Position numbers and translations under genes: made by a program
Shown here: positions 28,595 through 32,484 of the stretch, in pieces
Layout of the letters: each line of letters begins with the position of its first letter
Position numbering within the stretch: position 1 is the stretch's first letter
Assembly (NCBI RefSeq): GCF_040529045.1
Contig: NZ_CP131914.1
Span: 3,518,501 to 3,582,500 of the forward strand
DNA length: 64,000 bases
Origin: Xanthomonas indica
Lineage (GTDB): Bacteria > Pseudomonadota > Gammaproteobacteria > Xanthomonadales > Xanthomonadaceae
Direction of reading: 5' to 3'
The notes under the pieces: model-generated
Seen by the model: the letters and a program-made list of their open reading frames with translations, nothing else
Database searches by the model: none
Told to the model about the DNA's origin: nothing

Positions 28595-28683
28595 AAAAAC
28601 GCAAAAGGGGAAGGACTTGCGCCCTTCCCCCTGCATGCCTGCGATTGCTCCCGCCGAAACCCCGCACATGGACGTGCGGGTTT
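28595..28683 (-). promoter_or_regulatory. Attenuator-like leader of pheS-pheT-ihfA
   Basis: On the minus strand two hairpins precede pheS. The first pairs 28674-28683 (gtgcgggttt) with 28657-28667 (one bulged base). The second is a terminator: ggggaagg 28607-28614 with ccttcccc 28623-28630, followed by T-runs at 28603-28606 and 28595-28599. A 42-codon ORF (28508-28636) starts just before the terminator and contains SFPFCVF, but its Phe codons come from the T-tract itself. Evidence for a Phe leader peptide is therefore weak. Confidence 0.6.
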
Positions 28684-30230: not shown

Positions 30231-32135
30231 TCACGCCAACTGCTCGGCGCGCAGCCGGTCGGCGAAGGCGGCGACCGACATGGTGCCCAGATCCTCCCCC
30301 GATCGCGTGCGGACCGCAATCGCGCCGTTTTCCGTCTCGCGGTCGCCCGCCACCAACAGGTACGGCACCCGCTGCAGCGTGTGTTCGCGAATCTTATAGC
30401 CGATTTTTTCGTTCCGCAAATCGGCCTCGATGCGGAAGCCTTGATTTGCAAGGAGTTTCCGCACGTTGTCTACATAGTCTGCCTGAGCATCGGTGATGTT
30501 CATGACCACGGCCTGCACCGGCGCCAGCCAGGCCGGGAACATGCCGGCATGGTGCTCGATCAGGATGCCGATGAACCGCTCCATCGAGCCGACGATGGCC
30601 CGGTGCAGCATCACCGGATGCTTCTTCTGGCTGTGCTCGTCCACGTACTCGGCGCCGAGGCGGCCGGGCATCATGAAATCCACCTGCATGGTGCCGAGCT
30701 GCCAGGTGCGGCCGATCGCGTCCTTCAGGTGGTACTCGATCTTCGGGCCGTAGAAGGCGCCCTCGCCCGGCAGCTCCTTCCACTCCACCCCGCAGGCGCC
30801 GAGCGCGGCGCGCAGCGCAGCCTCGGCCTTGTCCCAGGTCGCGTCGTCGCCGAGGCGCTTTTCCGGGCGCAAGGCGATCTTGATCTGGATGTCGTCGAAG
30901 CCGAAGTCGCCGTACACCTTCAGCGCCTGCTGGTGGAAGGCGGTGACCTCGGCCTCGATCTGCTGCTCGGTGCAGAAGATGTGGCCGTCGTCCTGGGTGA
31001 AGCCGCGCACACGCAGGATGCCGTGCAGCGCGCCGGACGGCTCGTTGCGGTGGCAGGCGCCGAACTCGCCGTAGCGGATCGGCAGGTCGCGGTAGCTGTG
31101 CAGGCCCTGGTTGAACACCTGCACGTGACCCGGGCAGTTCATCGGCTTGACCGCGTAGGTGCGCTTCTCCGACTCGGTGAAGAACATGTTGTCCTGGTAG
31201 TTGTCCCAGTGGCCGGACTTCTGCCACAGCGACACGTCCAGAATCTGCGGGCAGCGCACCTCGCCGTAGCCGCTGTCGCGGTAGACCTTGCGCATGTACT
31301 GCTCGACCACCTGCCAGATCGACCAGCCCTTGGGGTGCCAGAACACCAGGCCCGGACCCTCTTCCTGCAGGTGGAACAGGTCCTGCTGCTTGCCGATCTT
31401 GCGGTGGTCGCGCTTGTCGGCCTCTTCCATGCGCAGGATGTAGGCCTCGAGCTGCTTCTTGTCGGCCCAAGCGGTGCCGTAGATGCGCTGCAGCTGCTCG
31501 TTCTTGGCGTCGCCGCGCCAGTAGGCGCCGGAGATGCGGGTCAGCTTGAACGCCTTGAGGAAGCGCGTGTTTGGCACGTGCGGGCCGCGGCACATGTCCA
31601 CGTATTCCTGGTGGTAGTACAGGCCCATCGCGGTGACGTCGTCGGGCATGTCCTCGATCAAGCGCAGCTTGTAGTCCTCGCCGCGCTGCTTGAACAGGTC
31701 GATCACCTCGGCGCGCGGAGTGACCTTCTTGATCACGTCGTAGTCCTGCGCGATCAGTTCCTGCATGCGCTTCTCGATCGCTGCCAGGTCCTCGGGGGTG
31801 AACGGGCGCTCGCTGTAGATGTCGTAGTAGAAGCCCTCGGCGATGACCGGGCCGATCACCATCTTGACCTCGGGATACAGCTGCTTGACCGCGTGGCCGA
31901 CCAGGTGCGCGCAGGAGTGGCGGATGATCTCCACGCCCTCGGCGTCCTTGGCGGTGATCAGGCGCAGGCTGGCGTCGTGGTCGATGACGTCGCAGGCGTC
32001 GACCAGGCGGCCGTCGACCTGGCCGGCAATGGTGGCCTTGGCCAGGCCGGGACCGATGGACTGGGCCACGTCCATGGGGCTGACGGGATGTTCGAATTCG
32101 CGGCGGCTGCCGTCGGGGAGCGTGATCGTGATCAT
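30231..32135 (-). CDS. thrS: Threonyl-tRNA synthetase
   Basis: 634 residues from ATG 32135 ([19 protein letters not shown]). Domains: TGS (1-60), editing N2 domain (about 65-225) with [15 protein letters not shown], the HxxxH/C editing motif region, the class II catalytic core ([20 protein letters not shown] holding the zinc Cys, then [13 protein letters not shown] and [20 protein letters not shown], and [16 protein letters not shown]), and the C-terminal anticodon-binding domain. It charges tRNA-Thr and hydrolyses Ser-tRNA-Thr. It begins the thrS-infC-rpmI-rplT-pheST-ihfA series. A leader peptide and terminator-like hairpin upstream suggest Thr attenuation. Confidence 0.98.
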
Positions 32136-32205
32136 GGGTGTCGGAGGAAAGGGAAACGGTGGGACGGCGTCCACGCCACCGTGGTGGCAGTCGCGACTGG
32201 GCGCG

Positions 32206-32235
32206 GGACAGAAAGAAGGCGCCACAAGGGCGCCT
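32206..32235 (-). terminator. Terminator-like hairpin in the thrS leader
   Basis: The stem aggcgcc (32217-32223) with ggcgcct (32229-32235), loop acaag, is followed on the minus strand by TTCTTTCT. It lies about 80 bp before the thrS ATG and 24 bp after a Thr-rich leader ORF, the arrangement of a transcription attenuator. Confidence 0.6.
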
Positions 32236-32259
32236 GCTCGGACAGCCTTGGGCGGGAAC

Positions 32260-32286
32260 TCACGCGAGGGCAGTGGTAGTGCTCAT
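32260..32286 (-). CDS. Putative threonine leader peptide for thrS
   Basis: A nine-codon ORF reading MSTTTALA (ACT ACC ACT in the middle), located 124 bp upstream of the thrS start and directly before the terminator-like hairpin. Three consecutive Thr codons in front of the gene for Thr-tRNA ligase fit ribosome-mediated attenuation. The SD is weak, and a competing antiterminator is only partly visible (caagg/ccttg), so this is a proposal. Confidence 0.5.
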
Positions 32287-32484
32287 GTCGCACGCTCGGC
32301 CGGCGTCGCCGCGGGCCACCCATGTCCGGATCAGATAGTGGGCAGATAGTAAACCAAAAGCGACCGATTGGTCACGGGCAAGGCTGGCGCGGCCCGGGAC
32401 GTGCCGTTACCGGACACCGCTGGCGTCGTTGGCGCGCCTCCAATCTCGCTGCGCCGCAGCAAGAGCTGCAGCGGCCGCCGTGGC

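Follow-up and report, generated by a model that had tools for sequence, protein, structure and literature searches.

A probable threonine-codon transcription attenuator ahead of thrS in Xanthomonas indica and its relatives

The thrS gene, encoding threonyl-tRNA synthetase (ThrRS), is the textbook example of translational autoregulation by an operator that mimics tRNA. Leader peptides are familiar from two other systems: the pheST operon of E. coli is controlled by a leader-peptide attenuator whose peptide, PheM, is longer than the one described here and contains several Phe codons, whilst thrL, the leader of the thr operon (Rfam Thr_leader), controls biosynthesis and carries a long Thr/Ile run. 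Lopatovskaya et al. (2010) reportedly dealt with attenuation at amino acid and aminoacyl-tRNA operons, and may already list thrS. In E. coli thrS, a hairpin recognised by ThrRS interrupts the ribosome-binding site (RBS) and ThrRS binding blocks translation of the gene (PMC3858243). Models of the trp and his attenuators comprise a switch between II:III and III:IV pairing, ribosome stalling on regulatory codons and a hairpin I:II (PMC1183508). The titles and opening lines of abstracts among the top literature matches held no description of a thrS leader peptide in the order Xanthomonadales.

The window, that is, the whole 64,000-nucleotide stretch of Xanthomonas indica DNA analysed here, contains a thrS gene whose product gave one full-length match in its own genome by protein search. 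The next ORFs downstream encode IF3, L35, L20 and PheS domains (infC, rpmI, rplT and pheS), and the upstream neighbour of the leader is a divergent LacI-family gene. The original prediction placed thrS under the control of a Thr leader peptide and attenuator, and conservation of the Thr codons together with covariation of terminator and antiterminator lends support to this: a ribosome-mediated transcription attenuator very probably sets transcription of thrS (and its operon) according to the charging of Thr-tRNA(Thr). The parts of the locus are as follows, with the ORF, the Thr conservation, P1, the terminator, the antiterminator covariation and the spacing all read from comparison with relatives.

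32346..32351, minus strand: candidate -10 element TACTAT of a presumed leader promoter, at -65 to the leader ATG
32317..32321, minus strand: candidate Shine-Dalgarno (SD) sequence GGGTG (AGGTG in most relatives), 5' of P1, from alignments and 16S rRNA complementarity
32298..32317, minus strand: hairpin P1, GGCC-C-GCG-(GCGA)-CGC-C-GGCC, between SD and AUG, from covariation
32287..32297, minus strand: conserved linker GAGCGTGCGAC leading up to the leader ATG, from 79 distinct leaders
32260..32286, minus strand: leader ORF MSTTTALA, ATGAGCACTACCACTGCCCTCGCGTGA, starting 151 nt before the thrS ATG
32272..32280, minus strand: putative regulatory codons ACT ACC ACT (Thr 3-5), with Thr conserved at codon 3
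32241..32254, minus strand: region 2, predicted 5' strand of the antiterminator, CGCCCAAGG, pairing with 32229-32225 and 32223-32220
32217..32235, minus strand: terminator hairpin (regions 3:4) AGGCGCC-CTTGT-GGCGCCT, from a terminator scan
32209..32216, minus strand: T-rich tract TCTTTCTG following the terminator stem, with six T among 10 nt
30231..32135, minus strand: thrS, the gene predicted to be regulated, with its ATG at 32135 and Pfam domains TGS, tRNA_SAD, tRNA-synt_2b and HGTP_anticodon

With the E. coli thrS operator this locus shares the gene and a hairpin that interrupts an RBS, but here the hairpin precedes a leader ORF and no Thr anticodon stands in its loop, and the predicted control acts on transcription. 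Like E. coli pheST, it is an aminoacyl-tRNA synthetase operon with a short leader of cognate codons, a terminator and an antiterminator; unlike pheM, the leaders have 5-9 codons (16 in one case) with one to three Thr, no 1:2 pairing and an RBS split by a hairpin. Thr codons, predicted ribosome stalling and a terminator before the gene recall thrL, from which the locus differs in having no long Thr/Ile run, in serving a synthetase gene and in the absence of any Rfam match to the window leader. A II:III versus III:IV switch with stalling on regulatory codons is predicted as in the trp and his models, whereas a hairpin I:II was not detected. The principle, classic leader-peptide attenuation, is known; neither Rfam nor the titles and abstract openings of the top literature matches showed its use at this gene, its distribution across an order, the split RBS or the lack of a 1:2 hairpin.

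At gathering score, an Rfam 15 scan of the window returned two tRNAs only, with no T-box or other family, and in 32100-32450 up to E 10 the sole match was suhB (15.1 bits against a gathering score of 41). Inspection by eye revealed a strong terminator-like hairpin GGGGAAGG..CCTTCCCCTTTTGCGTTTTT at ~28607-28630 (minus strand) between rplT and pheS, where no Phe-codon leader was noticed. In other loci, also picked by eye, the leader region of thrS is immediately preceded by a tRNA-Val(GAC) gene (12/12 checked: L176, L180, L181, L183, L184, L187-L189, L193, L197, L198 and L047).

A ThrRS protein search yielded 591 relatives, of which the 80 best loci were kept, almost all of them bearing titles of Xanthomonadaceae genera. 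A leader ORF precedes thrS in all 80 and in the window. As an anchor requiring AC at the start of codon 3 would force Thr, an anchor free of Thr was used as well: it gave the ORF again in these 80 loci, left the start codon unchanged in 80/80 of the second, model-selected set described below, and codon 3 remained Thr in both sets (80/80 and 81/81). Median identity to the window across these loci is 0.88 for the 52-nt leader module; for the last 52 nt before thrS it is 0.58, the value also obtained with shuffled sequence (0.58). R1, a covariance model of the module, finds one strong match in the genome of the window (75.6 bits; next 17.4) and, at E 0.01, hits 258 of 397 genomes from the order. 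Among the matches listed, the strong ones fall in families f1 and f12, plus one in f3 (G055), and among the non-matches listed the only genomes of the window's family are G321 and G331. All 80 fetched loci scoring at least 40 bits (L085-L164) have thrS downstream and none of nine fetched at 28 bits or below (L165-L173) does; weak matches in G150, G238 and G269 also lie at thrS. Of the 161 leaders considered below, 80 were selected by ThrRS and are independent of the motif; 80 others are not, since they were chosen by R1, which was built on MSTT-type leaders.

An automatic test for an ORF with two Thr in four codons and a terminator after it was passed by 68/80 ThrRS-selected loci (1.8/80 in dinucleotide shuffles), by 70/80 model-selected loci (shuffles 1.4) and by 20/28 loci from other families and odd members of the order (shuffles 1.0). 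Failures thus number 12/80 and 8/28 in the first and last of these sets. Amongst the eight, G321 keeps the terminator with no leader ORF visible, neither element is seen in G090, L178 carries the Thr ORF MQTRHFPT with no terminator called and L201 is the second ThrRS gene of G238. Because the ORF is conserved in 80/80 loci and 68/80 pass against 1.8 in shuffles, the leader module is more than chance; the window alone would be just suggestive.

The ORF with three Thr codons that the original prediction placed at 32260-32286 ahead of thrS is present as stated, and reads ATG-AGC-ACT-ACC-ACT-GCC-CTC-GCG-TGA (32286-32260, minus strand). When compared in relatives, as had been proposed, its Thr codons proved to be conserved: codon 3 is Thr in 161/161 leaders, ThrRS-selected and model-selected alike, and amongst 138 distinct leaders is ACT in 128, ACG in nine and ACC in one. 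ACT makes up 3.4% of the Thr codons in 79 thrS genes, and codon 2 varies amongst leaders (Ser, Asp, Ala, Arg, Thr, Glu or Gln). Taken together, the universal Thr at codon 3, the rarity of ACT in thrS and the variability of codon 2 point to selection acting on Thr, in most leaders as a rare Thr codon. Codon 4 is Thr in 118 of the 138 distinct leaders; in 11 it encodes Arg (CGA/CGC). ORF length is 5-9 codons in 160/161 leaders and 16 in L009, and three Thr codons are present in 92, two in 61 and one in eight. In unrelated leaders, namely L137, L139, L143, L152, L158-L163, L177, L179 and most of the second type described below (type B, MTR..), a CGA Arg codon recurs directly after the first Thr codon, giving Thr-CGA(-Thr). 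CGA accounts for 0.7% of Arg codons in the 79 thrS genes, and its recurrence possibly reflects a slow codon that paces the ribosome.

The leader SD had been described as weak. The weak GAG close to the ATG is probably not the sequence used; a likelier SD is GGGTG/AGGTG at 32321-32317, across the conserved hairpin P1 from the start codon, judged by its complementarity to 16S rRNA. The assignment is suggested by L187/L188 (family f11), which have GAGGTGGCACATG without the hairpin and with AGGTGG 3 nt from the ATG. P1 itself was analysed in alignments of 50 and 55 chosen leaders (A1 and A2). In A2 all seven pairs show compensatory change and 95.0% of cells are paired, and the observed covariation was reached by 0/500 shuffles on four measures and by 1/500 on a fifth; in 50 Xanthomonadaceae leaders alone covariation was no higher than in shuffles, P1 included. 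The P1 loop is a GNRA in 32/55 A2 sequences. From P1 to the ATG the linker GAGYGTGYGAC is almost invariant, GTG at -7..-5 and GAC at -3..-1 being identical in 79 distinct leaders; no structural partner was found for it, and it could be a polymerase pause or initiation element. RNAalifold on the 50 Xanthomonadaceae leaders offered a three-way junction of P1 with helices GGU:ACC (AGGTG with the Thr codons) and GUGC:GCAC (around the ATG), but these two helices were rejected on adding Rhodanobacteraceae-type leaders, 74.4% and 80.5% of cells being paired with none and one compensated pair, respectively.

On the terminator, the predicted 7-bp G+C-rich stem and following tract were found at 32235-32217 and in TCTTTCTG. 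The stem has six G-C pairs and a loop of five, and begins 24 nt after the leader stop codon; a scan of the 1.1-kb region gave two terminator-like sites against 0.4 expected from shuffles. In 160/161 leaders the stop codon is followed by a hairpin of 5 bp or more, answering the proposal that the stem be looked for in related genomes. At least five T occur in the 10 nt after it in 127/161 and four T in 17, counts that are lowered in several rows by A-T pairs extending the stem. In 11/80 ThrRS-selected loci the ORF is kept but the scan called no T-tract terminator behind it (L009, L010, L012-L014, L017, L027, L069, L071, L079 and L080; six are Xanthomonas: L009, L010, L012-L014 and L027), and all but L009 of these have a weaker hairpin without a T-tract. 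Attenuation may have been eroded at such loci; more broadly, the exceptions (no terminator call, failed test or single Thr) may be eroded switches, or the ORF may have a further role.

The antiterminator, originally described as only partly visible, is complete as CGCCCAAGG with CCUUG-GGCG. The pairing was read from the duplex and fold of L001, whose sequence here is that of the window; this duplex reaches z -1.71 (p 0.06), and 23% of single leaders are at p < 0.05. Across 65 representatives (159 leaders reduced at 80% similarity, with statistics that ignore phylogeny), sequence downstream of the stop codon pairs with the loop and neighbouring arm of the terminator at a mean z of -1.01 relative to shuffles (Wilcoxon p 1.8e-9). 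Partners were then swapped amongst 61 dissimilar leaders, leaving out L007, L018, L154 and L199, where the terminator lies less than 12 nt after the stop. Matched partners gave -16.60 kcal/mol versus -14.57 (sd 0.30) for swapped ones, a difference reached in 0/20000 permutations overall, in 0/20000 for loci to L164 (n 46) and in 77/20000 for those from L174 (n 15). Region 1 with 3, the leader RBS with 2 or 3 and a downstream control were all negative. Without the first 4 nt of the 3' arm the signal was weak and not significant (1373/20000), so the antiterminator would extend from the loop into the 3' arm. Region 2 and terminator change in step, from CAAGG/CCTTG in the window to CGAGG/CCTCG, CCAGG/CCTGG and ACCGG/CCGGT. 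These results point to a covarying antiterminator that competes with the terminator across families, and the stem and competitor sought in relatives are both conserved in this sense. The same approach gave no 1:2 hairpin (region 1 with region 2, matched -9.13 versus swapped -9.11 kcal/mol, z -0.1), and the 200-nt leader fold of the window is as stable as shuffles (z -0.21).

The distance from stop codon to loop centre has a median of 36 nt (sd 4.6) and no correlation with ORF length (rho 0.19, p 0.15). The median start of region 2 is 8 nt from the first base of the stop codon; in 50/61 leaders it starts no more than 12 nt from the stop codon, the reach of a ribosome there. Folding with a stalled ribosome, proposed as a check, gave a divided answer: pairing fell from a median of -16.8 to -9.5 kcal/mol, with 51/61 leaders losing at least 3, but the loss on moving the modelled ribosome from Thr codon to stop was not larger than with shuffled spacers (-6.9 vs -6.2 kcal/mol, p 0.15). 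Since the masked-fold loss does not exceed that of shuffled spacers, the geometry is at most compatible with the mechanism.

From these parts we infer a promoter, leader translation, stalling, masking by the ribosome, termination and a threonine response. Transcription would start ~53 nt before the leader ATG; best-scoring -10-like hexamers lie at -70..-61 in 52/81 loci (a raw count without shuffled baseline), and a strict sigma-70 scan of the window leader region gave no match. A ribosome would load on the SD across P1 and translate the eight codons. With ample Thr-tRNA it would arrive at the stop codon and cover region 2, allowing the 3:4 terminator to form before thrS. With scarce Thr-tRNA it would stall at codons 3-5 and leave region 2 free to pair with the loop of the terminator and the beginning of its 3' arm, so that RNA polymerase would proceed into thrS. 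These bacteria would probably, then, sense charged threonine tRNA through a stalled ribosome rather than by the protein-binding control of E. coli, given that a Thr-codon ORF, a terminator and a competing fold lie before thrS in most Xanthomonas relatives examined. Against an attenuator stand the few Thr codons, the absence of a 1:2 hairpin and single-leader duplex tests that are mostly not significant.

Because 1:2 pairing is absent, loss of leader translation is predicted to cause read-through rather than super-attenuation, and an untranslated leader may read through by default. A tentative and rather doubtful extension is a three-segment attenuator with an inverted default, in which only a ribosome that has initiated across SD-hairpin-AUG and stands at the stop codon permits termination. 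Were this true, the basal level would depend on the split RBS, which occurs in both of the unrelated leader types, and Thr-tRNA charging and initiation capacity alike would be signalled by the switch to a gene cluster with IF3 (infC) among its products.

The missing region 1 with region 2 pairing (z -0.1) would also suit an attenuator whose signal is the capacity for translation initiation or the overall pace of translation, with the Thr codons minor and an untranslated leader reading through, as would the conserved split RBS and linker, the single Thr codon in 8/161 leaders and the recurrence of rare CGA in type B and ACG-CGA-ACT leaders. We regard this as improbable: codon 3 is kept as Thr in 161/161 leaders though other codons change, and unrelated leaders of other families are Thr-rich too (MCQQATTTTTP and MRTTTMAIH). 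Autogenous control as in E. coli, with ThrRS binding a tRNA-mimicking leader hairpin to block translation and the ORF incidental, strikes us as very improbable. The E. coli thrS RBS is interrupted by a ThrRS-recognised hairpin and the leader-ORF RBS here is likewise split by a covarying one; however, the Thr anticodons CGU, GGU and UGU are absent from the P1 loops (0/55 in A2 and 0/50 in A1), the region next to the thrS start is at the shuffled baseline (0.58) whilst the module stands at 0.88, and the Thr codons, terminator and antiterminator would be left unexplained. That an upstream ORF without any regulatory role simply adjoins a terminator belonging to the preceding gene or tRNA is scarcely credible, for although tRNA-Val lies just upstream in 12/12 loci picked by eye and terminators precede thrS in 63/107 other gammaproteobacteria, the upstream neighbour in the window is the divergent LacI-family gene, and conservation of the Thr codon goes hand in hand with that of the antiterminator and of the spacing from stop to terminator.

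Threonine attenuation, the reading we favour, would also extend to leaders unrelated in sequence. Type B leaders (MTR..) have the form GGAG-YCGTA-[GTTC GAAC GAAC]-ACGATCACC-ATG-ACG-CGA (L175, L176, L180, L181, L183, L184, L189 and L311-L331), with compensatory changes GTCC/GGAC and GCCC/GGGC seen by eye in the hairpin. A model of this type, R2, matches 21/397 genomes (one in f1, G331; three in f2; nine in f3; eight in f12), with thrS downstream in 20/21, the remaining match (L329) being at a contig end. Exchange or retention of leader types is suggested as the explanation for its spread over f1, f2, f3 and f12. Judged by their sequences, what the two types share is the SD-hairpin-AUG arrangement, Thr early in a short ORF, and a terminator. 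Further Thr leaders with terminators occur in other families of the order (L192, L193, L194, L195, L196, L198 and L199), and Thr-rich leaders of other sequence include MCQQATTTTTP, MTRTTQLITRTID and MRTTTMAIH.

In a survey of the class, ThrRS matches were found in 176/185 genomes, three of them of the window's family. The 107 loci taken from elsewhere in the class (27 plus 80 in order of ThrRS score, G482 being left out at a contig end) gave 10 passes of the ORF and terminator test (shuffles 3.2) and one of its strict form (shuffles 0.4), and the sampled thrS genes of other gammaproteobacteria thus appear mostly to be without such a leader. A few distant leaders may exist elsewhere in the class, as the loose-form count exceeds its shuffles. 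The strict pass, L278 (G502, from another family of the class), has MTPRTQEITLPAF and a terminator 22 nt before thrS, and is a possible Thr leader outside the order.

If these readings are correct, most of an order appears to control thrS by transcription attenuation on a minimal leader. With leaders of down to five codons, little would seem to be needed for attenuation, and since leaders of two unrelated types carry a covarying hairpin that separates SD from AUG, how initiation proceeds on structured ribosome-binding sites becomes a concrete question.
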